Positions 3,901 through 50,736 of a stretch of 64,000 bases of DNA are shown piece by piece. Each line of letters starts with the position of its first letter. Positions within the stretch are counted from its first letter, which is position 1. Below the pieces are notes generated by a model, which was not told the DNA's origin, ran no database searches, and worked only from the letters and a program-made list of their open reading frames with translations. The DNA is from Struthio camelus (taxonomy: Eukaryota; Chordata; Aves; Struthioniformes; Struthionidae). The position numbers and the translations under genes are program-made. The stretch covers positions 186,001 to 250,000 of the forward strand of contig NC_090980.1 in NCBI RefSeq assembly GCF_040807025.1, in the 5' to 3' direction.

Positions 3901-6900
3901 CAAACCCCCTCTCCCGACCCCAAACCCCTTCCCAGACCCTCTGCGAACCCCAAACCCCCTCTCCCGACCCCAAACCCCTTCCCCAACCCTCTGCGAACCC
4001 CAAGTCCCCTCCGCAGGCCCCAAACCCCCCTGCTGGCCCCTCCGCAGAGGCCAATCCCCCTTCTGCAGACCCCCAACGCCCCCCCCCGGCCCCGGGGCTC
4101 ACGGCGGCGCAGGCATGGCAGTCGCGGTAGTCGTCGCAGAGGACGCAGTTGGCGGGCGAGAGCACGAGGCGGTGGGTGCCGGCGGCGCAGGGCCCCGGGC
4201 GCCCCGGCGGCTGCAGGCGGCCGTGGCAGGAGGCGCTGGGGGGGCACCAGCCGCAGCCCTGGTCGGCCAGGCAGGCCAGGCACGAGGGGTAGGAGGGGCA
4301 GCGGCCCGGCGACGACTGGAACGGCTCCAGGAAGAAGAAGGAGATCTCCTGGGGGGCGAACACGGGGCGCTGGTGGCGGGGGCCGGGACCGCACCCCCCC
4401 CCGCGCCCCAAAGCACGCAAACGCACCCCAAATCTCCACCCCGAGTACGCTGCCCCGGCAACGCACCCCAAAGCATGCCAGCGTGCCCCCCCCCGACCCG
4501 CACCCTCGGGAGACTATCCGGGACCCCGAAAACGCACCCCCAGAGGCCCCCTGCCCCAACCCTGCACCCCCCAGACACCCCCTGCCCCAACCCTGCGCCC
4601 CCCCAAGACCCCCTGCCCCAACCCGGTGCCCCCCAGACACCCCCTGCCCCAACCCTGCGCCTCCTAGAGACCCCCTGCCCCAACCCTGCGCCCCCCAGAG
4701 ACCCCCTGCCCCAACGCGGCGCCCCCCAGAGACCCCCTGCCTCAACCCTGCACCCCCCAGACACCCCCGCCCCAACCCTGCACCCCCCAGACACCCCCTG
4801 CCTCAACCCGGTGCCCCCAAGACACCCCCTGCCCCAACCCTGCGCCCCCCAGACACCCCCTGCCCCAACCCTGCGCCCCCCCGAGACCCCCTGCCCCAAC
4901 CCGGTGCCCCCCAGAGACCCCCTGCCCCAACCCGGTGCCCCCCAGAGACCCCCTGCCCCAACCCTGCGCCCCCCAGACACCCCCTGCCCCAACCCTGCGC
5001 CCCCCCGAGACCCCCTGCCCCAACCCTGCACCCCCCAGAGACCCCCTGCCCCAACCCTGTGCCCCCTAGAGACCCTCTGCCCCAACCCTGCACCCCCCAG
5101 ACACCCCCGCCCCAACCCTGCACCCCCCAGACACCCCCTGCCCCAACCCTGCGCCCCCTAGAGACCCTCTGCCCCAACCCTGCACCCCCCAGACACCCCC
5201 GCCCCAACCCTGCACCCCCCAGACACCCCCTGCCCCAACCCTGCGCCCCCTAGAGACCCTCTGCCCCAACCCTGCACCCCCCAGACACCCCCGCCCCAAC
5301 CCTGCACCCCCCAGACACCCTCTGCCCCAACCCTGCACCCCCCAGACACCCCCGCCCCAACCCTGCACCCCCCAGACACCCTCTGCCCCAACCCTGCACC
5401 CCCCAGACACCCCCTGCCCCAACCCTGCGCCCCCTAGAGACCCTCTGCCCCAACCCTGCACCCCCCAGACACCCCCTGCCCCAACCCTGCACCCCCCAGA
5501 CACCCCCTGCCCCAACCCTGCACCCCCCCAGACACCTCCTGCCCCAACGCGGCGCCCCTCAGACACCCCCTGCCCCAACGCGGCGCCCCCCAGACACCCC
5601 CTGCCCCAACGCGGCGCCCCGCAGCGCCCCGCGGGCCCCACTCACGCTGCCCCCCGGCACGCCGGTGCGGTCCCAGACGAGGGTGAGCTCGCTGCTCTGC
5701 CCGCTGCCCGAGCTGTTGAAGTGCCCCTCCACCTGCACCGCGTACTTGTTGCCCCACTCGGGGGCCGCGAAGAGCCGCTCGGGGCGCGGGCGCTGCAGGG
5801 GCCGCGTCTCCCGCTCCTGCTGCACGGCCCAGCGCCCCACCTCCTCCTGCGCGCAGTGGGTCAGGGGGACCCCTGAGCCCCTTGGGGACCCCAAAGAGCC
5901 CCCAGGGACCCCCAAACCCTGCTGGATTCGCACAAACCCACCAGGACCCCCGCACGGCCCAGCGCCCCACCTCCTCCTGCAGACAAGGGGACCCCCGAGC
6001 CCCTTGGGGACCCCAAAGAGCCCCCAGGGACCCCCAAACCCTGCTGGATTCACCCAAACCCACCAGGACCCCCGCACGGCCCAGCGCCCCACCTCCTCCT
6101 GCGCGCAGTGGGTCAGGGGGACCCCCGAGCCCCCGGGGACCCCAAAGAGCCCCCAGGGACCCCCAAACCCTGCTGGATTCGCCCAAACCCACCAGGACCC
6201 CCGCACGGCCCAGCGCCCCACCTCCTCCTGCGCGCAGTGGGTCAGGGGGACCCCCGAGCCCCCGGGGACCCCAAAGAGCCCCCAGGGACCCCCAAACCCT
6301 GCTGGATTCGCCCAAACCCACCAGGACCCCCGCACGGCCCAGCGCCCCACCTCCTCCTGCGCGCAGTGGGTCAGGGGGACCCCCGAGCCCCCGGGGACCC
6401 CAAAGAGCCCCCAGGGACCCCCAAACCCTGCTGGATTCGCCCAAACCCACCAGGACCCCCGCACGGCCCAGCGCCCCACCTCCTCCTGCGCGCAGTGGGT
6501 CAGGGGGACCCCCGAGCCCCCGGGGACCCCAAAGAGCCCCCAGGGACCCCCAAACCCTGCTGGATTCGCCCAAACCCACCAGGACCCCCACGGGCCTCAG
6601 CACCCCAGTTCCTCCTGCAAACAGGGGGACCCCCAAGCCTGCTGGGGACTGCCAACACCCACCGGGACCCCCCCAAAACCTTGCCGGGACCCCTAAACCC
6701 TCTGGGGACACCCCCACGTCCCAGAGCCCCATCTCCTCCTGCGCACGGGGCTCAGCGGACCCCCCCCAAACCCCCTGGGGGTCCCCCAAAGCCCCCCCCG
6801 GACCTCCCTGCACCCCCATACCAGCTCGGGGGAGTTGGGGTGGCGGCCGAGGCGGGCGACGACGTAGAGGCGCTGGATGCGGGCCCAGACGCTGGGGCCG

Positions 6901-9900
6901 GGGCCGGGGGCCGGGGGGGGCCCCAGCAGCGGGTAGATGAAGCCCCGGTAGACGAGGGAGACGTCGGTCTCGGCGCTGGGGCTCAGCGTGATGGTGGTGC
7001 TGCGCACGATGGACACCTGCGCCGGCACGGGGCACGGCTACCGCCGGCGCCCGCCCCACGGCGCCCAGCCCCACGGCGCCGCGAGGTGCCCCCCGCCGTG
7101 CCCCGCGGACCCCCCACGCTGCCATCTCCCCCCGTGGTGCCCCGCGGACCCCCCACCACGCTGCAATCGCCCCCCATGGTGCCCTGAGGACCCCCCCATG
7201 CTGCAATCTCCCCCCAGGCTGCAATCACCCCCCATGGTGCCCTGCGGACCCCCCTCACGCTGCAATCTCCCCCCATGGTGCCCTGCAGACCCCCCTGCAC
7301 TGCCTAGGCTCCCCCCACAGTGCCCTGCGGACCCCCCCACGCTGCAATCTCCCCCCACCGTGCCCTGTGGACCCCCCCACGCTGCAATCTCCCCCCACCG
7401 TGCCCTGCGGACCCCCCCACGCTGCAATCTCCCCCCACCGTGCCCTGCGGACCCCCCTGCAGTGCCTAGGCTCCCCCCACCATGCCCTGCGGACCCCCCC
7501 ACGCTGCAATCTCCCCCCACCGTGCCCTGCGGACCCCCCTGCACTGCCTAGGCTCCCCCCACAGTGCCCTGCGGACCCCCCCACGCTGCAATCTCCCCCC
7601 ACCATGCCCTGTGGACCCCCCCACGCTGCAATCTCCCCCCACCGTGCCCTGCGGACCCCCCCACGCTGCAATCTCCCCCCACCGTGCCCTGCGGACCCCC
7701 CTGCACTGCCTAGGCTCCCCCCACCATGCCCTGCGGACCCCCCCACGCTGCAATCTCCCCCCACCGTGCCCTGTGGACCCCCCTGCACTGCCTAGGCTCC
7801 CCCCACAGTGCCCTGCGGACCCCCCCCCATGCTGCAATCTCCCCCCACAGTGCCCAGCGGACCCCCCCATGCTGCAATCTCCCCCCACCGTGCCCTGCGG
7901 ACCCCCCACGCTGCAATCTCCCCCCACCGTGCCCTGTGGACCCCCCTGCACTGCAATCTCCCCCCACAGTGCCCTGCAGACCCCCCCCACGCTGCAATCT
8001 CCCCCCACCGTGCCCTGCGGACCCCCCCACGCTGCAATCTCCCCCCACAGTGCCCTGCAGACCCCCCTGCCCTGCCTAGGCTCCCCCCACCATGCCCTGC
8101 GGACCCCCCCACGCTGCAATCTCCCCCCACAGTGCCCTGCAGACCCCCCTGCCCTGCCTAGGCTCCCCCCACCATGCCCTGCGGACCCCCCCACGCTGCA
8201 ATCTCCCCCCACAGTGCCCTGCGGACCCCCCCACGCTGCAATCTCCCCCCACAGTGCCCTGCAGACCCCCCTGCACTGCCTAGGCTCCCCCCACCATGCC
8301 CAGCGGACCCCCCCACGCTGCAATCTCCCCCCACAGTGCCCTGCGGACCCCCCCACGCTGCAATCTCCCCTCACCGTGCCCTGCGGACCCCCCTGCAGTG
8401 CCTAGGCTCCCCCCTCGCTGCAATCCCCCCCCGGCGGCGCCCGGGACCCCCCCAGCACCCACCTTGTCGGGCTGGGAGTCGTTGCGGGGCTGCTGGTAGG
8501 TGATGAGGTGGAGGCCGGGCAGGAAGTTGGCGGTCTGGCAGTGCTCGAGGGCGGTGATGAAGACGGGCCGCGGCCCCCACCAGCCGTAGGTGCCCGAGAT
8601 CTGCCCCACACGGCAGCGGCTCTGCTCTGGGGGGGGGGGGGGGGGGGGATGGCAGGGGTCAGCAGCCCCCCGGCACAATCCCCGCGGCCCCCCCCAGCCC
8701 CGGCGCCCCGCGCTCACCTGCCACGGGCACGCAGGTGTCGTTCTGCACGCACCAGCCGAAGGGGCCGGGGGCCCGGGGGGAGCCCGGCGCGGCCCCCCCG
8801 AACGCCAGGCACGACTCGCAGTCCACCAGCAGACGGGCCAGGCCCAGGCAGCCGGTGCTGGGGCACTGGGTGGGGGGGGAAACAGGTCAGTGGGGCCCAG
8901 GCATCCGGGACCCCCCACCCCAGCATCGCTCGAGGGGAACCCAGGGGTCCTGGACCCCCATCCTGCCCCCCCATGGGCAACCCAGGGGTCCTGCCTCTAA
9001 TCCTGCCCCCGCCATGGGCAACCCAGGGGTCCTGGACCCCCATCCTGCCCCCCCTATGGGCAACCCAGGGGTCCTGCCTCTAATCCTGCCCCCCCACTGG
9101 CAACCCAGGGGTCCTGGACCCCCATCCTGCCCCCCCTATGGGCAACCCAGGGGTCTTGCCTCTAATCCTGCCCCCCCACTGGCAAGCCAGGGGTCCTGGT
9201 CCCACATTGCACCCCTGAGGAGAACCCAGGCATCCTGGACCCCCATCCTGCCCCATACAGGGAACCCAAGAGTCCTGGACCCCCATCCTGTCCCCTGGGG
9301 GTCCTGGTCCCCCATCGCGTCCCCGAGGGGGACCCAGGCATCCTAGACCCCCATCCTGCCCCATACAGGGAACCTAGGGGCCCTGGACCCCCATCCTGTC
9401 CCCTGGGGGTCCTGGTCCCCCATCGCGTCCCCGAGGGGGACCCAGGCATCCTGGACCCCCATCCTGCCCCATACAGGGAACCCAAGAGTCCTGGACCCCC
9501 ATCCTGTTCCCTGGGGGTCCTGGTCCCCCATCGCGTCCCCGAGGGGGACCCAGGCATCCTAGACCCCCATCCTGCCCCATACAGGGAACCTAGGGGGCCT
9601 GGACCCCCATCCTGCCCCCCACAGGGAACCCAGGGGCCCAGCCCGGCGCCGGGGCTCACGTTGCTGTGGGGCGCGGGGCTCTGGCACCCGCCGAGGCACC
9701 AGGCGCACTGCGGGTCCTTGGTGCAGGTGCCCTTCTCGGCGTAGAGCGAGCAGTAGTCGAGGTGGTACTGGGGGGAGAGCGAGGACGGAGACCCCCGGCG
9801 CCGCGGGGGGCCGGGGACCCCCCCCAGCACGGGGCAGGGGGACGGAGAGCCCCCAAGGACCCCACAGCATAGGGGCTCAGGGGAAGCGAAGGGCAGAAGG

Positions 9901-12900
9901 GACTGGCGGCCATGGGAACCTTGCAGATGGGAGCTGGGGGTCCTGGGGGTGGGCTGTGGGCCCCGGGGACCCCAAAGATGGGAGCGGGGTCCCCCCAGGT
10001 GGGCTAGGGACCCCATGGATGGGAGCTGGGGGTCCTTGGGGTGGACTAGGGACCCTGGGGACATCATAGATGGGAGCCCTAGGGACCTCCGGCTGCGTTG
10101 GGAACCCCATGGATGGGATCAGGGACCCACAAGCGGGCTGAGGACCCCACGAATGGGATCAGGGACCCCAAAGATGGGAGCAGAGATCCCCCAGGTGGGT
10201 TGGGAACCCCACAGATGGGAGCTGGGGGTCCTTGGGGTGGGCTGGGGACTCTGGGGACACCATGGATGGGAGCAGGGACCCCTGGACAGGCTGGGGACCC
10301 CATGGATGGCAGCTGGGGGTCCTTGGGGTGGGCTTGGGACTCTGGGGACACCACGGATGGGAGCTGGGGGTCCTCGAGGTGGGCTGGGGACCCCAAGGAT
10401 GGGATCAGGGACCCCCTGGATGGGAGCAGGGTCCCCTGGGCAGGCTGAGGACCCCATGGATGGGAGCAGGGGCCCCCGGGTGGGCTGGGGACTCCCCAGA
10501 TGGGATCAGGGACCCCCGGGTGGGCTGGGGACCCTGGTTGGGGGGGAGACTCACGTTCTGGGCGGGCACCTGGAAGACGAAGGCCGGCACCTTGTAGGCG
10601 AGGAGGTCGGCGCGGGGGGCCCCGCTGAAGCCCCCGGCCACCAGCAGCACGCTGCCCCGCAGCACCGCGGCCACGTGGGCGTAGCGGCCCTGCCCCGGGG
10701 ACCCCCGGGACCCCCGCTCTAGGGGGAGGGGGGGGGGACACGTCAGACCTGCTGGGACCCCTGTGTAGGCCCCCGGCGCCCACCGCCGTCGCCCCCGCTA
10801 CGGGGCGGCCCCCTCCGCCTCCTCACCGTGGGGCAGCCCGTGGGCCAGCTCGGCGCTGGGCACCCACTGGTGGCAGCCGAGGTGGTAGAAGAAGATCTCG
10901 TCCTCGTAGCACTTCTCCTCGTGGTAGTGGATGTGCACGTTCCCCCCTGCGGGGCCGGGCCGGGGGTCAGCCCCCCTCGCCGTGGGGCAGCGAACGGGGG
11001 CCCCCATTCACCCTGCCGCACCCCGACGGCGGAGGGCAGGTCCCTGGGGGAGACTCAGGGGGTCCCAGGATGCCACTATGAAGCCCCCATGGTGGGGGGC
11101 AGCAGTTCCCTGGGGGTATCTGGGATGGCAGGGGGGTCCCTGTGGGTCCCCACTCACTACAGACCACCATGCAGCCCCATTGGTGGGCGACAGCAGTGCT
11201 CTGGGGGATCCCCGGGGGGGCCCTGTGGGTCCCAGGGGTCCCCACTCACTGCAGATAACCATGCAGCCCCAATGAAGGGGGACAGCGGTTCCCTGGGGGT
11301 CTCTGGGGTGGTGACGGGGGCCCTTTGGGTCCCCGTGGCTCCCCACTCGCTGTAGACCACCATGCAGCCCCATTGGTGAGGATCAGGGGGTCTCTGGGGG
11401 GTCCGCGGGGTGGTGGAGGGTCCCTAGGTGGTCCCTGGAGCCTCCAACACGTCCCCACTCACCGTAGACCACCATGAAGCCTCAATGATGGGGTCAGGGG
11501 GTCCCTGGGGGGTCCTCGGGGGGGTCCCCATGCATCCCCACTCACTGTAGACCACCATGCAGCTCCAATGATGGGGTCAGGGGGTCCCTGGGGGGTCCCC
11601 AAGGGGTCCCCGCGCGTCCCCACTCACCGTAGACCACCATGTAGTCCCCGATGACGGTGGCGCTGTGGAAGGCGCGCTCCCGGGGGCCCCGCGCGGCGTC
11701 CCGGGCCCGCAGCGTGGTCCAGTGGCGCAGGTCCACGTGGAAGAGGTCGGTGGTGTTCACCCGCATGCTGAACCTGCGGCGAGGGGGACACGGGGGACGT
11801 GGGGCCGGGCCGTGGGGACACGAGGGATGTGGGGATGCAGGGATGGGATGGGACACGGGGACGGGATGGGACATAGGGACGGGGCTGTATGTGGGACAGG
11901 GACGTCCCTCCGGGGCACCCCACACACACAGGGTCCCCCCATGGCCACAGGTCCCACCAGCGTCCCCATGGGACTACTCCACAACCCCCCTAGTGTCCCC
12001 ATGGGGCCACCCCATGACCACAGCCCCTCCCAAGGTCCCTATGAGGTCCCACCATGGCCACAGCCCCCCCAAGGTCACCACGGGGTCCCACCATGGCCAC
12101 GCCCCCCCCCAAAGTCCCCATGGGGTCCCCCCATGGCCACAGACCCCCCCAAGGTCACCACGGGGTCCCACCATGGCCACAGCCCCTCCCAAGGTCCCCA
12201 TGGGGTCACCCCAGCCCCCATACCGTGCCGTGGAGGGCCGGTGCCCCCCGTAGACCACGAGGGTGCGGGAGGGGGCGTGAAAGACCATGGAGTGGCCGGC
12301 GGCCGTGGGGGGCTTCCCCCCCCAGGGCACCACCACCTCCCACCGCCACGTCTCCAGGTCGAAGCGGAAGAGCTGCGAGGAGAAGACGTCCTCCGCCGTG
12401 CGGCCTGCGGGCAGAGGGGCTCAGCGGGAGGGACCCCGGCGTCCGGGACCCCCATAGCCGCGAGCCTGCCCACCCCATGGACCCCCACAAAGCCAGCAGG
12501 GACCCAGGCGCCCGGGACCCCCATAGCCAGGCGCCGGGTCCCCCCCAAGGCCAGCAGGGACCCAGGCGCCCGGGACCCCCATAGCCAGGCGCCGGGTCCC
12601 CCACAAAGCCGGCAGGGACCCAGGCACCCGGGACCCCCATAGCCAGGTGCCGGGTCCCCCACAAAGCCGGCAGGGACCCAGGCGCCCGGGACCCCCATAG
12701 CCAGGTGCCGAGTCCCCCCCAAGGCCAGCAGGGACCCAGGCGCCCGGGACCCCCATAGCCAGGCGCCGGGTCCCCCCCAAGGCCGGCAGGGACCCAGGCG
12801 CCCGGGACCCCCATAGCCAGGCGCCGGGTCCCCCACAAAGCCAGCAGGGACCCAGGCGCCCGGGACCCCCATAGCCAGGCGCCGGGTCCCCCCCAAGGCC

Positions 12901-15900: not shown

Positions 15901-18324
15901 CCCAGCAGGTCCATGGCCCCCCAGCCCTGTCCCCGGTGGTCCCACCCCCTCCCTGGAGGTCTGTGGCCCCCCAGCTCTGACCCTGGTGGTCCCAGCCCAT
16001 CCCTGGTGGTCCGCGGCCCCCAGCGGTCCTAACCCTGTCCCCAGAGGTCCGTGCTGCCCCAGCCTCATCCCTGGTGGTCCCACCCCATCCCCTGGTGGTC
16101 CCAACCCTGTCCCCAGTGGTCCCAACACATCTCCTGGTGGTCCCACCCCATCCCCTGGTGGTCCCAACCCTGTCCCCAGTGGTCCCAACACATCTCCTGG
16201 TGGTCCTACCCCATCCCTGGTGGTCCCACCCCATTCCTTGGTGGTCCCACCCCATTCCTTGGCGGTCCCAGCTCCATCCCCGGTGGTCCCAGCCCCATCC
16301 TACCTGGTTGCAGGCGCCGTGGGCCTGGCAGTAGGCGGCGCAGTGGGGCTGGGCGCAGGCGGGCCCCCCCCAGCCGGGCTGGCAGGCGCAGCGGCCCTGG
16401 GGGTCGCAGGCCCCCCGCCCCGAGCAGCCCCGCGGGCACAGCGAGACGCTGTAGGTCGCGTTGAAGCCCAGCAGGTTGTAGTTGGCGTCGCTGAAGAGGT
16501 GCAACAGCATCTGGGGGGGGGGGGGGGGACAGCGGAGTCGGGGTGGGCACCCCACAGCCGCCCCACGGCCTCACCAGTGCCCCATGGCCCCCCATGACCT
16601 CCCTGGCACCCCACGGCTGCCCCACGGCCTCACCAGCACCCTATAGCCACCCTATAGCTGCACCCCCTGCACCCCACGACTGCCCCATGGCTGCAGCTGC
16701 ACCCCCCGCACCCCATGTCCACCCCCCAGCTGCACCTGCACCCCCTGCACCCCACGACACCCCCCCGGGCACAGCTGCACCCCCTGCACCCCACGTCCAC
16801 CCCCCAGCTGCACCTGCACCCCCTGCACCCCATGACACCCCATGGCTGCACCTGCACCCCCTGCACCCCATGACACCCCATGGCTGCACCTGCACCCCCT
16901 GCACCCCACGTCCACCCCCCAGCTGCACCTGCACCCCCTGCACCCCATGACACCCCATGGCTGCAGCTGCACCCCCCACACCCCCCACCCACCCCCCAGC
17001 TGCACCTGCACCCCCTGCACCCCACGACACCCCATGGCTGCAGCTGCACCCCCTGCAGCCCACGACAGCCCCCCGAGCGCAGCTGCGCCCCCCCGGCCCC
17101 CGCACCTTGCCCGAGGCGGCCTCGAGGGGGGCGGGCAGGGTGCTCCCGCTGAGGCTGGCGAGCAGGGGGCTGCGGGGGGAGTCCCCGTCGTAGACGAAGA
17201 GGTAGTCGTAGGTGCACTCCGTGTCCATGAAGGTGAAGGTGAGCAGCACGCGGTGCCGCGGGCTGGGCGCTGCGGGGCCGCGGGGCGTCAGGGGGGCCCC
17301 GACGCCCCCCACCACCACCTGCAGCCCTGGGGGGGGGGGGCTGTGGGGTGTTGGGGGGCCAGCTCTGTCCCCCCGAGACCACTGGGCACCACCCCGACCC
17401 ATGAAGACCTGGGGACAGGGCAGCCCTGGGGTGACTGGGGAGGGACTGGGGGCAATGGGGGGCCCTTGGGAGAGCCCTGGGTACTGAGGAGTCTCGGGGG
17501 GGGGCATAGGGGTACGGGGGTATCTCTAGGTGAAGCTATGGGGAACTGGGGGGGGCTCTAGGGGTGCCCCAGGGCTACTGGAGTGTCTCTGGGGGGGGCT
17601 CTAGAGGTATTGGGGGACCCCAGAACGCCATGGGGAACTGGGGTGACCCTGGGGGGGTGCAATGGGGGTACCAGGGAGACCCGACAAGGGGCTCTATAGC
17701 GGTACTGGAGTGTCTTGGGGGGGGCTACAGCGGTATGGGGGAACCTCAGGGTGCCCCAAGGGAACTGGGGAGTCTCTGGGGGGGCTACAGTGGTATCAGG
17801 GTGACCCTAGGATGTCCCAGGGGCACTGGAGTGTCTCTGGGGGGTGAAATGGGGCTACTGGGGGGAACCGGAGAGGGTCTACAGAAGTACTGGGGTGTCT
17901 CCGGGGGGGTTATCGGGGTGCTGGGAGACCCCAGAGCGCCCTCGAGGTACTGGGGTGTCTCCGGGGGGGTTATCGGGGTGCTGGGAGACCCCAGAGCGCC
18001 CTCGAGGTACTGGGGTGTCTCCGGGGGGGTTATCGGGGTGCTGGGAGACCCCAGAGCGCCCTCGAGGTACTGGGGTGTCTCCGGGGGGATGAGGGAGCCC
18101 CCAGGGGTGCCCCGGCGGCCCGTCCCCGCCTCACCTTCGATGAGCCACTCGCAGTTGCCGTTGACGGAGTAGTTGCCGGGGCCGTCGCTGACGTAGCCGG
18201 CGAGGCCGCGCAGCACCCGCCGCTGCCCCTTGCAGTCGCCGGCGCCGGCCCCGCGCACCCCGCTCAGCGCCAGGGCCAGCGCCAGCAGCGCCCGGGGGCC
18301 CCGGGCCGCCGGGGGGGCTGCCAT
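979..18324 (-). CDS. MEGF8: MEGF8, multiple EGF-like domains protein 8, N-terminal 1,114 residues (3' part outside window)
   Basis: Large type I membrane protein; the family works with MOSMO/MGRN1 to tune Hedgehog receptor levels and left-right patterning. Twenty coding exons, all phase-consistent: 18324-18135, 17269-17106, 16510-16304, 15012-14832, 13560-13472, 13347-13122, 12404-12224, 11773-11628, 10946-10827, 10718-10555, 9767-9660, 8865-8718, 8626-8463, 7016-6822, 5846-5646, 4348-4103, 3035-2917, 2829-2698, 2004-1891, 1227-979. Order seen: signal peptide (about 1-28), CUB (30-142, with [17 protein letters not shown]), two EGF-like modules (140-200), Kelch repeats (210-555), PSI-type cysteine modules (560-650 and 830-1030) and a calcium-binding EGF ([10 protein letters not shown], about 1065-1112). 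Exon 20 ends inside a Thr codon, so the gene continues below base 1. The first ATG precedes a signal peptide and the family-conserved GDCKGQR. Human MEGF8 is about 2,845 aa. Exon 15 may have alternative acceptors (see intron 14 array). Confidence 0.96.
1233..1870. repeat. 49-bp minisatellite, MEGF8 intron 19
   Basis: About 12 copies of a 49-bp unit containing GGGCCACCACGGGGGCGATC. It is nearly perfect at first and degenerates towards 1,870. Confidence 0.9.
2100..2690. repeat. About 49-bp minisatellite, MEGF8 intron 18
   Basis: Units with ACATCTCCTGACCCCAAGGA, best preserved from 2,400 to 2,680 and degenerate upstream. Confidence 0.85.
3140..4025. repeat. 50-bp minisatellite, MEGF8 intron 16
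   Basis: Units with CCCAGACCCTCTGCAGACCC repeat every 50 bp, very regular between 3,480 and 4,000. More degenerate copies precede. Confidence 0.9.
4540..5630. repeat. 30-31-bp minisatellite, MEGF8 intron 15
   Basis: About 35 units of ACCCCCTGCCCCAACCCTGC type, with small length variants, fill the intron up to exon 15. Confidence 0.9.
5847..6760 (-). repeat. MEGF8: 129-bp minisatellite carrying the exon 15 acceptor, MEGF8 intron 14
   Basis: Between the genuine acceptor (edge 5846) and about 6,760 there are roughly seven further copies of the acceptor plus the first codons of exon 15 (E-E-V-G-R-W-A-V). Four central acceptors lie 129 bp apart (CAGTGG marks at 6101, 6230, 6359, 6488). The unit is 43 codons and stays open on the minus strand. 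Confidence 0.9.
7060..8440. repeat. About 41-bp minisatellite, MEGF8 intron 13
   Basis: More than 30 units containing GTGCCCTGCGGACCCCCC and GCTGCAATCTCCCCCC occupy almost the whole 1.4-kb intron. Confidence 0.9.
8915..9640. repeat. Compound minisatellite, MEGF8 intron 11
   Basis: Units with ACCCAGGCATCCTGGACCCC and ACCCAGGGGTCCTGGACCCC, arranged in higher-order blocks from 9,200 on. Confidence 0.85.
9930..10545. repeat. Minisatellite, MEGF8 intron 10
   Basis: Degenerate units with GATGGGAGCTGGGGGTCCTT and GGGCTGGGGACCCC run up to exon 10. Confidence 0.8.
11047..11627 (-). repeat. MEGF8: Donor-carrying minisatellite, MEGF8 intron 8
   Basis: Five to six degenerate units, each repeating the 3' end of exon 8 with its donor (plus-strand CTCACCGTAGACCACCAT) followed by intron sequence. 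Examples are near 11,148, 11,240, 11,343, 11,457 and 11,540; the true exon edge is 11628. Confidence 0.8.
11925..12215. repeat. Minisatellite, MEGF8 intron 7
   Basis: Units with GTCCCACCATGGCCACAGCC and AAGGTCACCACGGG, period about 40-55 bp. Confidence 0.75.
12433..13060. repeat. 58-bp minisatellite, MEGF8 intron 6
   Basis: Ten to eleven units with ATAGCCAGGCGCCGGGTCCC and CAGCAGGGACCCAGGCGCC, highly homogeneous. Confidence 0.9.
13640..14810. repeat. About 41-bp minisatellite, MEGF8 intron 4
   Basis: About 27 units with ACATACCCCTCTAGAGCC and ACGGCCCCATATCCCC. Many units contain a TCTAGA site. Confidence 0.9.
15090..16300. repeat. Two adjacent minisatellites, MEGF8 intron 3
   Basis: 15,090-15,880 has GGGTTTGGGGGTCCCTGGGG / AGCCCCATGCTTGGGG units. 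15,900-16,300 has GTGGTCCCACCCCATCCC units. Confidence 0.85.
16560..17100. repeat. Minisatellite, MEGF8 intron 2
   Basis: Units with GCTGCACCTGCACCCCCTGC separated by CACCCCATGACACCCCATG. Confidence 0.85.
17500..18080. repeat. Minisatellite with three perfect 60-bp copies, MEGF8 intron 1
   Basis: Degenerate units run from 17,500. From about 17,889 three 60-bp copies with GTGTCTCCGGGGGGGTTATC follow without visible mismatch, a sign of very recent duplication. Confidence 0.9.
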
Positions 18325-21581: not shown

Positions 21582-31581
<10,000 letters not shown>

Positions 31582-42169: not shown

Positions 42170-43050
42170 CCCCAATGAGCCCCATGGCCGGCAGGGCCGG
42201 CACCCCTTGGAGCCCCAGCACTGAGGGGACCGTGACCCCGACGAGCCCCATGGCCGGCAGGGCTGGCACCCCCAGGAGCCCCAGCACTGAGGGGACTGTG
42301 ACCCCGACGAGCCCCATGGCCGGCAGGGCTGGCACCCCTTGGAGCCCCAGCACTGAGGGGACTGTGACCCCAATGAGCCCCATGGCTGACAGGGCCAGCA
42401 CCCCTTGGAGCCCCAGCACTGAGGGGACCGTGACCCCAATGAGCCCCATGGCCGGCAGGGCTGGCACCCCTTGGAGCCCCAGCACTGAGGGGACTGTGAC
42501 CCCAATGAGCCCCATGGCTGACAGGGCCAGCACCCCTTGGAGCCCCAGCACTGAGGGGACCGTGACCCCAATGAGCCCCATGGCCGGCAGGGCTGGCACC
42601 CCCAGGAGCCCCAGCACTGAGGGGACCGTGACCCCGACGAGCCCCATGGCCGGCAGGGCTGGCACCCCCAGGAGCCCCAGCACTGAGGGGACTGTGACCC
42701 CGACGAGCCCCATGGCCGGCAGGGCTGGCACCCCTTGGAGCCCCAGCACTGAGGGGACCGTGACCCCGACGAGCCCCATGGCTGACAGGGCTGGCACCCC
42801 CAGGAGCCCCAGCACTGAGGGGACCGTGACCCCGACGAGCCCCATGGCCGGCAGGGCCGGCACCCCCAGGAGCCCCAGCACTGAGGGGACCATGGCCCCC
42901 CAAGCCCCATGGCCAGGAGGGCCATTGTCCTGGGGAACCCCAGCACCGAGGGGGCCACAACTCCACTGAACCCCATGGCCGGCAGGGCTGGCACCCCCAG
43001 GAGCCCTAGCACTGAGGGGACCGCGATGCTGCCGGGCTCCACAATTGAGG
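42170..43050. repeat. 66-bp minisatellite in intron of the unidentified 42-46 kb locus
   Basis: About 13 units with AGCACTGAGGGGACCGTGAC and ATGGCCGGCAGGGCTGGCAC, period 66 bp (22 codons). Because the period is a multiple of three, long open frames appear on both strands. They begin just after a splice donor and look like a by-product. Confidence 0.9.
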
Positions 43051-43363
43051 GGACCCAGCTGAACTCCAGCGCTGCGGAGACCTGGCTAAGGCACCCAGCG
43101 CAGGGGGCAACCACCCCTTGGAGCCCGCTGCGCCAGCCCCACAGCTGAGGGAAGGCACCAGGTTCCCCAGGCCTCCAGTCCTCTGCTAAACTCACCCGCA
43201 GAGGGTCTGGCTGCCTATCCCTGAGGTGTCAGTTTGGCTCGCGAGTGCCAGCCCCGGGGAAAGAAGCTCTCTGGTTGAAGCACAGGGCTGAGAAGCGAGG
43301 AAGGAGAGGATCCCGAAGCGAGGAGCTGTGATGGGAGCCAACAGAGTTTTCTCTTTTTTTCAG

Positions 43364-43526
43364 GAAATTGAAAGAGGACAGCAACGCCCGCTTTGCCTCC
43401 TTCGCTCCCCAGTTAGGCAGAAGTCAAGTCTGAAGAGATGCCTGTCTACTTTCCTGAAAGACAGCAGGCAGAGATGGTAGCCTTGAAGAAAATGAAGTGA
43501 AACTATGACTTCACAAGTGAACTAGG
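43364..43526 (+). other. Candidate exon of unidentified plus-strand locus
   Basis: A textbook acceptor (pyrimidine run CTCTTTTTTT then CAG) ends at 43363. The following sequence has short open frames, for instance a 20-codon one from the ATG at 43439 (MPVYFPERQQ...), and no obvious homologue. The 3' edge is uncertain; a GTGCAG donor candidate is near 43526. Confidence 0.3.
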
Positions 43527-43916
43527 TGCAGGCAGGTGGAGAGGAGACCAGCGACAATGCAGATGGCGCACCACCTGGCAGAAGCAAGCAGAGCTGAGGC
43601 ATTTCGCTTTTGCCTCCCTGAAGCTTCTACTTTCTGTTTGGGTGGGGGAAACTCGCCAAAAGGGTAAAGTTTGCACCGCTGGGTAAGAGAGACCCAGCTC
43701 TCGGTGCCCTGGGATGCGGCCCACCCTCTCGGTGGCATGCATCTGTCTGGGTATGGTGGCCTCGAGCCTTCCAGGCCCTTCAGGTGCCACCCTGCCGGGG
43801 TGAAGTCCCACAGCCAGGACAGCAAAGCCCCCGGGGTGTGGGAAGCAGTTTCCCTGTGACAGGGTTTGGGAAGAGCTCATGTCCCACGGGCTCATGTCCT
43901 GAAGTTTCCTTCTTAG

Positions 43917-43996
43917 GTCTCCCTCTCCCAAAGCCTGCGTTTACGTGTCGTGGCTGGCAGCCCCAAAAGCCCAAGCAGCTGGCGAAGAAAAGGGAG
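43917..43996 (+). other. Candidate 80-nt exon of unidentified locus
   Basis: The acceptor TTTCCTTCTTAG precedes 43917 and a weak donor GTGGTT follows 43996. One frame is lysine/proline rich (QPQKPKQLAKKRE). It does not join in phase to the next candidate exon, so it is either alternative or not real. Confidence 0.2.
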
Positions 43997-44532
43997 GTGG
44001 TTTTGCTTTGAGGCACGTGCGCATCCTTTCTTGGCGATGATGAGGCAGGAAGTATGCAGCATACATGAAGAGCTTGCAAGGGTCTGAACCATACCGTGAC
44101 ACTTGTTTTACCACAAGAGTTTACGCTTTCAGGCGTTTCGTACCATTTCGAAGCCAAAGGTGGTAATTTGCTAGCGCTCTCTCCGTCTGTCATGGGAACA
44201 CCTCAGAATAACATAACGGGCAGCACAGAGCTGTTTCTTACGCAGCCACATGTGAGCTCTCTAACGTCTCCCGCCTGAGCAGCGCTGCCTTTCCCTGCCT
44301 TAAAAAGCGACACGGCGCAGCTCAACCGGTTCATCTGTAGTGTCTGCGCGAGTCACCTGCCCCGCGCTGATCTCCGCGGGCGCGTGCGAAGCCCCCCTCG
44401 TCCCCAACGCCCGTGATCCTGTCACAGCCGCTGAAAACGTGTAAGGGCTGGCGGCCCCTGGCACTGTGATACTAATCATTTCAGCACTCTTTTGTCTTGA
44501 CGCATTTGGGAACACATTCATCTTTCTTACAG

Positions 44533-44612
44533 CTACAGTCAAAACCTCGAGGCCACAATATAAATCCACGGCTCTGAAAAAGTGGAAGAAGAAAGGGCAA
44601 AACATCACGCAG
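44533..44612 (+). other. Candidate 80-nt exon of unidentified locus
   Basis: A very good acceptor (ATCTTTCTTACAG) and a very good donor (CAG followed by GTAAGAAT) flank 80 bases. One frame is open and basic (RPQYKSTALKKWKKKGQ), ending in phase 0. That frame continues into the 45,326 segment as Q-K-E-A-T-E. I do not recognise the peptide. Confidence 0.4.
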
Positions 44613-45325
44613 GTAAGAATACTTGATGTATTTTCTTCTCTTTCTTTTGCTAACGAATCTCATTTCTGAGGTGAAACACGCTGTTCACTGAGCAATGTCT
44701 CAGCAATAGCCTCGACGTGAGTAGCCCAGTCTGTGATGTAGTCGGGGCCCAAATTACTAATGACACTCATAAATTATATAACGATTATCATCTAGTTAGA
44801 ATAATTAAAGCCAGAATCCTCACCCACTGATTCAAACAAAAGTCTTTGCTAGCAATAAAATGGATATAAAATACTTAAAGGGGGCAGGGAGAAGAAATTA
44901 TGTCAAAAACCTAGAAAAGCTGAAATCTGACAAAATCATTATTATCTCTGGTTTCCTGGCCGCAGCGTGGAGAGGAACAATTCACTTCCATCCCAGTTCC
45001 TGAAGGTGGTAAATTGGAGGGCTGAGGCATCTAACAAGGGCCAACCACAAACTGCTTGTGTTGGACGCTCCCTCTGCTGGTTACCAGAGCGCCTTTCGTT
45101 GGCAAAGGCATGGGAAATTTTGTTCTGAAATAGACTTCTCCTCCCCACAAAAGGGAAAAACTCCTGTAGCCGTTTGCACAACGATTTTGGAAACATTGAC
45201 AACTGGGTTTGTTAAATCAAAAATGTTCTGGAAAAATCCTGCAGCAAATTATTGTTTCGTTAAAAAACAACACTTTCGCATACAAAGTAGTTTACTTTAG
45301 GAAAAAAAAAAAAAAACTTTTACAG

Positions 45326-46290
45326 CAGAAGGAAGCTACAGAGGCACCCGCTGAGAAGGAGGATTCCCAGCATACAGCAGATCCTGAGAAAACAGATGAA
45401 ACTTCCCCCAGGGACACAGCCGATCCTGACCCCGGCCTTCGACACGGTGAGCTGGTGCGTGCAGGGTTCTTGTCCGCGCTCTCGCGGGAGCCCTGAGAGC
45501 GGGGAGCCGCCAGCCTGCGAATTCGGGGGGCCGGGCCGGGCTGCTGGCGGGTCCCCTGAAGGTTAACCGCGCGCCCCAACGACCGCCAGCTGTTTCCGCG
45601 GGCGAGCTCTCCGCGCTGGCCGCGGACTCCTTCCTCTTAAGGAAATGTAAATCTCACTCCCCGTCGGCTACCTGTCCTCGCACCTGCCCGCACCCCAGCT
45701 TCCTCCACGTTCAGGCAGACGCGACCAAAGAAACGTCCTTGTCGCCACCCCCCGGCCCGCGGATCCCTCCGTGACCTGGCTGCAGTCCAGCGCAGCGACG
45801 GCCACAGCCTGACATCTCATTCCCATTGTGCTGGCTCCTGCATTCCCGCACGGCAGCGTGTCGGAGGCTGTCGGCACGGAGCCGAGCTGATGCTGAGCCA
45901 GACACAAATGCAAGGGGACAGTGTCACTGCTTAGTCAATTATAATCAGAAGGTATCAGTATCAGGATTAGGCTGCTGCGGTTTTCCATGCCTGGCTCCAA
46001 GAAAGAGCGCAGTGGCTCATCTTTCTCTGTGCATTCACGTTCCGTCGGAGGCCTGGGCTCTTATTTACTCTGCGGCTACAGAGAATTAGGCCCAAATATG
46101 TCACTGCCCGTTTATTTCTGTAGCTCTGCTGCGGCAGCAGCTAAGCAGCCCTGCATAGCGCGCTCTCTAGACGCACCCAGGGGAGCTGTTTCTGAAGCCA
46201 CTGGACACAGCACCCAAGTTAACGCGTACAGCTTATGAAAGAGAGAAAAAAGCGTGCCTCAAAATCAATAAACCACAGGGTAGCAATTAC
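45326..46290 (+). other. Candidate terminal exon of unidentified locus with poly(A) signal
   Basis: An acceptor (AACTTTTACAG) precedes 45326. The frame continuing from 44,612 is acidic and open to a TGA at 45494-45496 (EATEAPAEKEDSQHTADPEK...). An optional donor (CACG then GTGAGC) lies after 45446. Plus-strand AATAAA at 46267-46272 would end the transcript. There is no recognised family and no in-frame upstream ATG has been fixed. Confidence 0.35.
46267..46272 (+). terminator. Poly(A) signal of the unidentified 42-46 kb locus
   Basis: AATAAA in an A-rich context on the plus strand, the first such motif after the candidate terminal exon begins at 45,326. Confidence 0.35.
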
Positions 46291-47600
46291 TTATGTAAGC
46301 CTTACAGTTTCCTGGGGCTTTTCCTCCTCCCCTGACGTGGCCTCGACGCCCCCAAGCGCCTAAGGACGCAGCAGTGATGGCTGTCCCCTCTCCGCGCGCC
46401 CAGCACCTCGTTGCCTCGGGCGCGCTGGTGTCCACGGAAGGAGGCGCCGCGGTGCAGGGCCAGACGGCCCGTTTCTGTCCCCACCAAGGCCCTGCTCCTC
46501 CCTTCCCCTTCTAGCCTGCCCGGGTTGCCTTTCTGCGTCAGCAAACGCTCAGTCCGCAGCCCCCGGGCTTCAGCAAGGACCCGGCGCGGCGGGAAAGCGC
46601 AGCGGGAGAGAAGCGCCCTTCCCGTGTTGCCCGGGAGGTGAAACCGGGCTGTCCCGCGCCCCCAGGCTGGGCTGGGAGTCGGGAAGGAGGCTGACACCTC
46701 GCCCGGGGCAGTTTGGGGCCGTGCGAAGGAGGGGTGACCGGGAGGACGGGGCAGCGGCCGCCCTTGGCCCGTGCGAGGAGCCCCCCCGGCTCTGCTTTCT
46801 GTCACAGCGCTGCCTTCCGCGGCCCGCAGAGGCCTGACAGGAAGCAGAGGAAGTTTCGTGCTCTTCAGCTCTCTCCTGCTCTGTGTTTATCTTCATAACA
46901 AATGTTTTATTAATATCCCCACATCGCTGTTTCTCCGAGCGTGTCTGGAAGACGGTGGCGGGGAGGGGCGGCACCGCGGGCTTGCCGAGGGAGGCGCGCG
47001 TTTGATCGTGGAAGGTGTTTGGGAGGAGGCAGCGGCGTCCTGGGGCGGGCGAGGAGTCCCGCCCCAACGCAGAGGGGCTCAGCTTTGGGGAGCCTCGTTC
47101 TAACACCGGCTCAGGCCCCCGGAAGCGGGATCGCCCTGCCGGCTCCCAACCGCCCGATTCCTCCCGGCCGGGGTGCGGGGCGGGAGCGCGACGCTCGTCC
47201 CGCGCGGCCTGCCGGCTGCACCTCGTGTGCTGTAACTGCCCCCGGGGCGGGGACAGGTACATCCATCTCGGTGGCGAGGAGCAATCGGGTCTAACTGGGG
47301 GAGGCGAGTCCCCGGCGCCCCTCTCGCAGGCGGTTTTTATCTTGGGGTGCGTTTCGGTGCGCGAAAACCCAGGAGCGGCTGGCACAGGCCTCCTCCCTCG
47401 GGCAAGGGGGAGAGAAACCATTTACCTTCGAGACCCAGGGCGCGGAAGCGCAAGCGGAGGAAGTGCCCTTTGCTCGTGACGATGGCCTTCACTAAAGCTC
47501 TGGCCCGTTTTGGCTCCCTGCGAAGTCATCCCAGTTTCCCGCAGAGTCACAGGGACGGGCTCGTCCCCGCAGACGCTCCAGCTGGGGCCTAAAACAGCCG
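46290..47600. other. Spacer without recognised gene
   Basis: Mixed, moderately GC-rich, non-tandem sequence. Long open frames exist on both strands (283 codons on minus, 46570-47421) but show no domain, family motif or plausible splice structure. An AT-rich island lies near 46,880-46,930. Confidence 0.5.
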
Positions 47601-47760
47601 GCGCCTTCGGTGGGCTAGAAAGAGGGGCGGCGCGGACTGGCAGCGCTCGCGGGGAAGGCGGCGGCGGCCCGCGGGCGCTGGTTCTGCTCTCCCCCGCGCA
47701 GCCCGCGCGCTCCGGGCGCACGGGGAGGCAGCAGCGGAAGCGGCGCTCCGCCACCGGTGG
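47600..47760 (+). promoter_or_regulatory. CpG-rich promoter-like segment with first-exon donor
   Basis: A dense CpG cluster ends in CCACCGGTGG followed by a perfect donor GTGAGT at 47761. It reads on plus, towards the 3' end of CD79A, so any transcript would run antisense to CD79A. No downstream exon is recognised. Confidence 0.35.
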
Positions 47761-48080
47761 GTGAGTCCCCTCTCCCGGGGAGACGGAAGGGGCAGTCGGG
47801 GTGGGAGAGGAGGCGAGCTTTGCTTTGCTTTCTTCGTTTGGGGAGCGGCTGCTCCTCGTTCACTGCCGGCACGAAGGGGAAGGGGGAGGGACACGGAAAC
47901 TCCTGCTGCGGCCCGCGGGGCGCTGCCGACCTGGAAAGTCTGAGACGCGCCGGCTCGAGGCAGGGCTGAGCGCGGCGGCCGGGAACAGAGCGGCTCTATT
48001 CCCGCACGCCCTCCCCCGGCCCCGTGCAGCCCCCTCCGTGTCGCACGGACTCCAGGACCCCCCGTCAGCAGCTCGTCAGC

Positions 48081-48086
48081 TTTATT
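48081..48086 (-). terminator. CD79A: CD79A poly(A) signal
   Basis: AATAAA on minus (TTTATT on plus), about 310 bases after the TGA stop. It gives a short 3' UTR of non-repetitive sequence. Confidence 0.75.
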
Positions 48087-48396
48087 CCTGGTCGAGCCGC
48101 CCGGCCAGCAGAGCACCTGGGGCCGGAGCCACAGTCAGGGGAGGGGAACGCCAAGGGAACCGCGTGGTTGAAGAGCGGAGCGAAGCCGTGGGGGACTCGA
48201 GCCAAAGGGGACGATAACGGGCGTCTGTCGCTGCCTGGTGCTGCCGGGAGCTGGCTGCGCCGGGCGCCGATCCCGGCGCCAAATTGCCCCCGTCTGTGGG
48301 AAGCCGGAGGGCGAGAAGAGGCCGGGGGGCTGGCGGGAGGCGGAAGGGGGTGACGCGCGGGCACGGCGGAAGGCCGGAGGCGAGGGCCCCGGCCCC

Positions 48397-50736
48397 TCAC
48401 GGCTTCTCCAGCTGCGTGTCGCCGGCGCAGAGGCTGCCCACGTCCTGGTACGTGGGCTGCAGCCCCCGCGAGATGTCCTCGTACATGGAGCACTCGTCCA
48501 GGTTCAGCCCCTGGGGAGGCAAAGGGACGACGGGGTCAGCGAGGCCGCGGGGCTCGGCGGATACGGGGCGGGACGGCGCGCGCGCCGCCGGCGGGCTCAC
48601 CTCGTAGAGGTTCTCCTCCTCGTAGGCGCTCTTCTTGAGCTGCAGCAGCCGCTCGTTCGCCCATCGCTTCTGCGGCGGCCGAAAGGGGCAGAGCTCAGGC
48701 CGGGGCTCGCGGCGCGCGGGGCATCCCGCCGGCGCCGGGCCGCCCCAGACCCACCGCCGCTGCCCCCAGACCCGTCGCCGCCGACCCCAGACCCACCGCC
48801 GCTGGCCCCAGACCCGCCACTGCCGCCCCCAGACCCGCCGTCGCCGCCCCAGACCCGCCGTCGCCGCCGACCCCAGACCCACCGCCGCTGCCCCCAGACC
48901 CGTCGCCGCCGACCCCAGACCCACCGCCGCTGGCCCCAGACCCGCCACTGCCACCCCCAGACCCGCCACTGCCGCCCCCAGACCCGCCGTCGCCGCCCCA
49001 GACCCACCGCCGCTGGCCCCAGACCCGCCACTGCCGCCCCCAGACCCGCCGTCGCCGCCCCAGACCTGTCGCCGCCGACCCCAGACCCACCGCCGCTGCC
49101 CCCAGACCCGTCGCCGCCGACCCCAGACCCACCGCCGCTGCCCCCAGACCTGTCGCCGCCGACCCCAGACCCACCGCTGCTGGCCCCAGACCCGCCGCCG
49201 CTGACCCCAGACCTGGCACTGCTGACCCAGACCCGCTGCTGCCGCCCCAGACCCACCGCCGCTGCCGCCCCAGACCCGCCACCGCTGCCCCCAGACCCGC
49301 CACCGCTGCCCCCAGACCCGCCACCACCGCCCCCAGACCCACCACCACCGCCCCCAGACCCGCCACCACTGACCCAGACCCGCCGCCGCCGACCCCAGAC
49401 CCGCCACCGCTGCCCCCAGACCCACCACCGCTGCCCCCAGACCCGCCACCACCGACCCCAGACCCACCACCACCGCCCCCAGACCCGCCACCGCTGACCC
49501 CAGACCCGCCGCTGCCGCTGCCGCCGCATGCTCTCGGGGCGGGGGGTGGCCGGCGCCGCTCGGGCGCGCGGGGGGCTCACCCTAAAGAGGAGGAAGAGGC
49601 CGGGTCCCACGGCGCAGAGCAGGAGCAGGATGCCCTCCGCCATGATGATCCGGTTCTTAGTGGATTCCTTGATGTTCAGGAAGGGCACGGCCATCGGGTC
49701 TGCAAGGGGGCGCCGGGGGCGGCCGTCAGCTCGGCCCCGAGCCCCCCTCGCCCGCCGGAGGGGCCGGCCCACCCTCCCCGCGCCCCCCACTCACTGCGCA
49801 CGCGCAGGTAGGTGCCGCACGACCGCCCGGCGGCCCAGCCGGCCTCCACCTTGCAGAAGTAGAGGCCGGCGTCTTGCTTGTCGACGTGGCGGAAGGTCAG
49901 GGTGACGCGGCCGGCTTCCAGCAAGAGGGAGCGGCCGCCGTAGCTGGTGTTGACGGGGGCGAAGGAGGCGCTGCAGTTCTTGTGGGGGCAGACGCGGTTC
50001 CAGGTCACCGTGGCGTCCTTGGGGGCCTTGAACACGCACTCCAGGCTGACGCGGTCGCCCACCGTGGCGGTGCGGGACGTGGGCCCGGCCTCCACCACCA
50101 CGGAGCATCTGCCGGGGCAGCACCGGCCCGCCGCCACCGTCTGGTTGTTCTCCACCAGGATGGGGGTCAGGGCCAGGCGGGACGGGGGCGGCGGCGGCGG
50201 CAGGGAGAAGGGGCAGCTGCTGCCGTTGCAGGTCCGGTTGGCCGCGGCGGGCGCCAGCCAGAGGCACCCTGCGGGCAGAGCGCGGGGTGGGGGGGGCACC
50301 TCAGGGCCCGGCCAAGCTCGCCGGGAGGCGGCGGGGGGCCTCCCCGGCGCCAGCAGGGCCCCGGCCCCGCGCGCCCCCCGCCCCCAACCCCCCTGGGGCC
50401 GGTTTCGGTTCCTCTTTTCGGGCCGTGTTGACAGGAAGCAAAAGGGACGGGCTGGGGCCGACGCTATTCCGGGGTGCCCCGGGGGGGGCAGCGGCGGGGG
50501 GCCGGCGAGGGGGCCGCGGGGCCTTTCCCCTCGCGGCGCCCCGTTGCCCCCCGCCGCGGGCTCGCGGGCCGCCGGCTGCGCCCCAGCCCACCCGCGCCGT
50601 GGGGGCGAGCGTTTCGGGGCGGGCTGGCCCCCCCCCAACCACCCGCTCCGCGCCCCCCGCCCGGCCGGGCCCTACCTGAGAAGAGGCAGAGGACGAGGGG
50701 CAGCGGGGCGCCGCGCCGGCCGGCAGCACCCGCCAT
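48397..50736 (-). CDS. CD79A: CD79A, B-cell antigen receptor alpha chain (Ig-alpha)
   Basis: Signalling partner of membrane immunoglobulin with CD79B. Five exons: 50736-50676, 50268-49795, 49699-49581, 48669-48601, 48510-48397; 278 aa. Visible: signal peptide (1-20), Ig domain (about 75-178) with its cysteine pair in SLECVF and LYFCKV, stalk and membrane span [15 protein letters not shown] (about 193-215), and cytosolic tail. The ITAM is YEGL (Tyr240), seven residues, YEDI (Tyr251), then a third tyrosine in TYQDV (Tyr262), spacing as in human; the end DTQLEKP is also conserved. The extracellular part is about 50 residues longer than in human (226 aa), with a proline run (PPPPPP) and extra cysteines (TCNGSSC, CCPGRC) that could form further disulphides. 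The gene is divergent from ARHGEF1. Confidence 0.96.
48750..49525. repeat. 21-24-bp minisatellite, CD79A intron 3
   Basis: About 35 units of CCCAGACCCGCCACTGCCG type fill the intron before the membrane-span exon. Confidence 0.9.

Follow-up and report, generated by a model that had tools for sequence, protein, structure and literature searches.

Tandem copies of the exon 15 splice acceptor in intron 14 of an ostrich MEGF8-type gene resemble avian exon stuttering

Results

Intron 14 of a MEGF8-type gene in the ostrich, Struthio camelus, contains seven upstream copies of the exon 15 acceptor on the minus strand, in agreement with an initial annotation of the same DNA that had proposed extra exon 15 acceptors in this intron. 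We consider it highly probable that these copies are stuttered exon-border sequence, a frame-blind by-product of local tandem expansion that splicing mostly ignores. Coordinates refer to the window, the whole 64,000-nt stretch of DNA that was analyzed, and the following features define the locus:

6822–7016, minus strand: coding exon 14, an open frame between AG/GT borders; length 195 nt, both ends in phase 0, donor GTATGG
5646–5846, minus strand: coding exon 15, 201 nt, acceptor 5847/5846, donor GTGAGT
5847–6821, minus strand: intron 14, 975 nt, 79% tandem repeat
5822–6618, minus strand: 129-nt minisatellite with the acceptor and 25 nt of exon 15, 6.2 copies (Tandem Repeats Finder)
5952–5976, minus strand: exon 15 edge copy 1, offset 130 nt, frameshift; acceptor tail different
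6074–6098, minus strand: exon 15 edge copy 2, offset 252 nt, in frame, open, 84 codons
6203–6227, minus strand: exon 15 edge copy 3, offset 381 nt, in frame, open, 127 codons
6332–6356, minus strand: exon 15 edge copy 4, offset 510 nt, in frame, open, 170 codons
6461–6485, minus strand: exon 15 edge copy 5, offset 639 nt, in frame, open, 213 codons
6590–6614, minus strand: exon 15 edge copy 6, diverged (17/25 ungapped), offset 768 nt, in frame, TGA at codon 6 (6599–6597)
6714–6738, minus strand: exon 15 edge copy 7, diverged (21/25), offset 892 nt, frameshift

The real exon 15 acceptor lies at 5847/5846 with 5846 as the first exon base, and the upstream acceptors lie at 5976, 6098, 6227, 6356, 6485, 6614 and 6738, all on the minus strand. 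Exon bases 1–25 are reproduced exactly in five of the seven copies (5976, 6098, 6227, 6356 and 6485), and the diverged copies at 6738 and 6614 retain 21 of 25 and, ungapped, 17 of 25 of these bases. The 27 intron bases upstream of the acceptor are identical in four of the five exact copies, and at the nearest copy, 5976, upstream intron identity with the real acceptor covers 4 bases only. Tandem Repeats Finder called a single array at 5822–6618 (period 129, 6.2 copies, 95% matches, score 1420) that reaches 25 bases inside exon 15. An exon boundary has thus been amplified together with its splice signal, as the annotation had suggested, and for this reason the array is not purely an intronic repeat. 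From 6738 down, the blocks between successive acceptors measure 124, 129, 129, 129, 129, 122 and 130 nt. Of the four 129-nt blocks, three have the same sequence, with which the remaining one agrees at 121 of 129 positions. The exact 129-bp spacing that had been described holds across five successive copies (6614–6485–6356–6227–6098) and breaks down next to the exon, where the blocks are 122 and 130 nt long.

We compared these copies with chance expectation in two screens. In exon stuttering, the edge of a coding exon recurs as direct tandem copies in the intron next to it. The published screen counts blastn-short matches that span 20 nt or more, reach 42.1 bits, lie in the proximal intron and exceed a shuffled control (Hron et al. 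2026, PMC12954441). Applied here on the plus strand only and with our own gene model, its settings gave six matches of 20 nt or more when 20 exons were compared with 19 introns. Five of the six score 50.1 bits, and all five are exon 15 in intron 14, proximal and starting at exon base 1; they exceed both the published threshold, which belongs to the authors' own control, and the maximum of 38.2 bits over 20 runs of our shuffled control. In a second screen of 38 exon edges of the MEGF8-type gene, for which five acceptors without a clean AG were moved by 1–3 nt (that of exon 8 excepted), two edges were marked, the exon 15 acceptor (score 25.0 versus a null maximum of 16.5 in 100 resamples) and the exon 8 donor (local-alignment score 16.0 versus a null maximum of 11.0 in 100 resamples). 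The acceptors of exons 11 and 12 were unmarked, each being reached by one of 100 resamples. For the neighboring TMEM145-like gene, ten peptide cores provided 20 edges, reduced to 18 once the first core was dropped as a wrong-frame duplicate, and none of the 18 was marked, although the 3′ edge at 24281 still stood above its null (11.5 versus 11.0); this screen is weaker than that of the MEGF8-type gene, its core edges not being exact exon edges.

The marked exon 8 donor is a second case of a copied exon edge in the same gene:

11158–11657, minus strand: exon 8 3′ edge and donor copied into intron 8; last exon base 11628

At least five donor copies are present (11546, 11463, 11351, 11250 and 11158, minus strand; the pattern used may miss others), and GC replaces GT in the copy at 11351. 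Their offsets of 82, 165, 277, 378 and 470 nt leave remainders of 1, 0, 1, 0 and 2 on division by three, and in the stuttering screen as run here these copies fall under the published threshold. Together, the exon 8 donor and the exon 15 acceptor indicate a process that copies both types of splice site and ignores the reading frame.

The gene looks like a MEGF8-type gene, with the reservation that attractins have much of the same architecture. Pfam matches in the joined exon cores comprise CUB, EGF, the ATRN/LZTR1 Kelch propeller, PSI and EGF_CA, an architecture that we take to be that of MEGF8, and exon 15 presumably resembles its counterpart in human MEGF8. The adjacent gene on the same strand, with a Pfam match to GPR180-TMEM145_TM, fits our understanding that TMEM145 adjoins MEGF8 in other vertebrates:

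22491–28493, minus strand: TMEM145-like gene, upstream of the MEGF8-type gene and among arrays; Pfam match

Exon 15 starts at residue 747 of the joined cores, after the propeller (243–531) and before the best PSI stretch (976–1008). Exon borders are our own reading; those of exons 14 and 15 are clean, and the acceptors of exons 8, 9, 12, 13, 17 and 18 and the donors of exons 17 and 19 are not clean AG/GT sites. The joined exons lose frame after exon 6, so a border near exon 6 must be off. A PDB sequence search with exon cores 14–16 returned nothing meaningful (best E 0.25), and Rfam gave no match in the window at gathering score.

Repeats dominate the introns of this gene. Tandem repeat makes up 78% of the MEGF8-type introns (14,008 bases) versus 3% of the exons (3,338 bases), and arrays occur in 16 of the 19 modelled introns. 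The contig is 443 kb long, in an assembly whose contigs range from 225 Mb to less than 1 Mb, and six samples of it have a GC content of 65–79%. Among 18 samples taken across the genome, four on contigs C1, C5 and C10 have 34–43% GC, and five on C32, C33, C35, C37 and C38 are repeat-rich with 66–77% GC; four of these five (C32, C33, C37 and C38) were placed near sequence matches to the window and are not a random picture of their contigs. Among the 44 matches listed for the window, the window itself is 100% identical and the next best is 65% identical. Like bird dot chromosomes as described in PMC9974502, the contig is GC-rich and repeat-rich, but at 443 kb it falls far short of the chicken dot chromosomes, whose average is given there as 4.0 Mb; it may be a fragment of a chromosome.

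Other parts of the window vary in repeat structure. Intron 15 contains about 35 copies of a 31-nt unit (4537–5624), an array that starts about 20 nt past the exon 15 donor, and intron 13 holds a layered array of about 1.2 kb (7210–8393) with periods of 40, 82 and 244 nt. Within exon 3 (16304–16510, minus strand), 50 bases lie inside a tandem-repeat call. The stretch 43024–48738 is without arrays at the score used, with a GC content of 51% at 44–46 kb, and eight open reading frames between 43.5 and 48.1 kb matched no Pfam family.

We then followed the reading frame through the copies. Four of the seven are in frame and open, two cause frameshifts (5976 and 6738) and one carries a stop (6614), so that three of seven are broken for coding and the units of the array do not all keep frame, as those of a coding minisatellite would. 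The putative inserts from the in-frame copies are 84, 127, 170 and 213 residues, or 84+43k with a step of 43; the earlier expectation of inserts in multiples of 43 residues from every upstream acceptor is contradicted by all seven copies, just four of which are in frame and open at all. Each insert would be read partly in one frame of the unit and partly in another, because the phase changes at the 122-nt block and returns at the 130-nt block; exon 15 is entered in frame only because 122 and 130 add up to 252. Of the open frame described earlier, with the acceptor CAG read as Gln, the part from 6485 to the exon stands; CAG is not read as Gln in the 122-nt block, and the copy at 6614 contains a TGA. 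At 975 nt, a retained intron 14 would by its length alone keep the exon 14 frame, but that frame runs into a TAG at 6695–6693.

An open frame is expected from sequence of this composition. The tandem unit is stop-free in five of six frames and the stretch 6485–5847 in four of six, and the opposite strand has open frames of 480, 406 and 436 amino acids over much of the region. In simulations, a given frame was open in 72% of 5000 first-order random 129-nt sequences of intron composition and in 54% of shuffled units. Periods divisible by three occur in 16 of the 47 arrays in the window (non-overlapping, with a minimum period of 10, copy number of 2.5 and score of 150) and in 8 of 26 in the MEGF8 part, which is chance level. 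Openness is therefore no evidence of coding, since the unit is open in five of six frames, the antisense frames are long and the periods are at chance. A coding reading of the array based on its open frame was dropped after this six-frame check and array-period count. Two joined copies of the unit matched no Pfam family.

To compare splice sites we used small models built from 16 acceptors and 18 donors, all from this one gene. Four copies score 4.0, equal to the real exon 15 acceptor, and the copy at 6738 scores 4.1; because four copies match the real site over 27 intron and 25 exon bases, a local score cannot separate them from it. When no site contributes to the model that scores it, the real acceptor is fourth lowest of 16 and lies on the weak side, and the exon 14 donor scores 1.7, second lowest of 18. 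A stronger statement, that this acceptor is the weakest of the gene, was dropped: the other 15 had been scored by a model made from themselves. In each of the four open in-frame copies, a CTGAC resembling a branch site lies upstream, its A at a distance of 15 nt; the best donor-like site in the copies scores 6.7 (GAG/GTGGGG), and the coding strand of intron 14 holds 12 G4-type motifs.

The exon measures 201 nt from the real acceptor versus 453–840 nt from the in-frame copies, and its flanking introns, 14 and 15, have lengths of 975 and 1297 nt. For human alternative sites, exon definition is expected in introns longer than about 250 nt, with the site closest across the exon favored, and the overall upstream preference among 3′ sites is significantly reduced in the long-intron class, as described in the report PMC9225289. 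Exon definition would favor the real site here, as both introns exceed about 250 nt and it pairs across the shorter exon; the upstream preference works the other way. By this analysis the copies are likely to be mostly ignored by splicing, and leaky use of a copy is possible.

Discussion

The order of events that we favor begins with local tandem expansion on a GC-rich, repeat-filled chromosome of the dot type, which would have taken in the border of intron 14 and exon 15 and multiplied this border, together with its acceptor, along the intron. The youngest expansion is probably that of the three identical 129-nt blocks, and the outer copies may have decayed afterwards, acquiring the stop and the frameshifts. 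Such an expansion would be blind to reading frame and splicing and presumably neutral. The real acceptor is probably still the main one in use, because no other pairs with the exon 15 donor to give an exon of 201 nt, and exons starting at the in-frame copies would be 453–840 nt long. Individuals may differ in copy number at the array.

We weighed three other readings of the locus. Copy number could set protein length if distal in-frame acceptors were usefully spliced and placed 84, 127, 170 or 213 residues after the propeller, and the four in-frame, open copies are locally identical to a real acceptor that is itself on the weak side (fourth lowest of 16), each with a branch-like CTGAC whose A lies 15 nt upstream. 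However, openness and a period divisible by three are what composition predicts, frameshifts or a stop spoil three of the seven copies, the nearest one being among those frameshifted, two joined units have no Pfam match and the process seen at exon 8 ignores frame, and we regard such a function as very improbable. We give similarly little credence to a related conjecture, in which a self-copying acceptor used at a low or tissue-specific level would make MEGF8 alleles of one species differ by 43-residue steps (84+43k), a length polymorphism written in an intron. The copies might instead have a regulatory role, either as decoy acceptors or, being G-rich, as splicing regulators, and so adjust how often exon 15 is included or how much MEGF8 is made. 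In its favor, the tandem acceptors score equally, the copies contain donor-like sites and the coding strand of intron 14 carries 12 G4-type motifs; with arrays in 16 of 19 introns, though, intron 14 is not singled out, and this role too appears most unlikely.

Least probable of all is an assembly artefact in which copy number was inflated or collapsed in a difficult GC-rich repeat. The three identical 129-nt blocks would fit such an error, and some local variation in stuttering introns can be technical (PMC12954441), but neighboring blocks differ in sequence and in length (122, 130 and 124 nt), so the array predates any assembly error and doubt attaches to the count of identical blocks alone. 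Frame-blind stuttering of the exon border remains our preferred reading. Silent copies would make the locus a natural experiment in how the spliceosome picks out one acceptor from four more whose flanks (27 intron bases, 25 exon bases) are identical to its own, and would leave a single gene that displays stuttering on both the acceptor and the donor side. Used copies would mean that an unstable chromosome writes length variation into a large multidomain protein.

Our literature search found nothing that joins MEGF8 and minisatellites, and none of the literature matches listed brings MEGF8 and dot chromosomes together. The closest known system is exon stuttering on avian dot chromosomes, reported for 115 chicken genes and 236 introns, 190 of them on dot chromosomes (PMC12954441). 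According to that report, the source lies at most one base from the exon border in more than 90% of cases, the exon part spans 20–187 nt in 1–44 copies, and stuttering introns have heavy simple-repeat cover, leave exons intact and vary in length between individuals; potential alternatively spliced transcripts are mentioned. The ostrich locus is alike in that an exon edge and its splice site are repeated in the adjacent intron, with exon bases 1–25 as the source and five copies over the published threshold (seven in all), and in its small contig with GC-rich, repeat-filled introns and largely repeat-free exons. It differs in that one assembly is described here and MEGF8 is not named in the main text of that report, from which the terms RNA-seq, isoform and reading frame are also absent. 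Intron gain by tandem duplication of exon (proto-)splice sites, as presented in PMC2891723, likewise creates extra splice signals and possible alternative forms, but that duplication occurs in coding sequence and makes a new intron, whereas here an existing intron has been enlarged and its acceptor copied. An ordinary intronic minisatellite shares the regular period of 129, the 6.2 copies and the 95% matches, but does not, as this array does, enter a coding exon by 25 nt with its acceptor. Judged by these sequence features, the locus is best filed as a further case of the exon stuttering already described.
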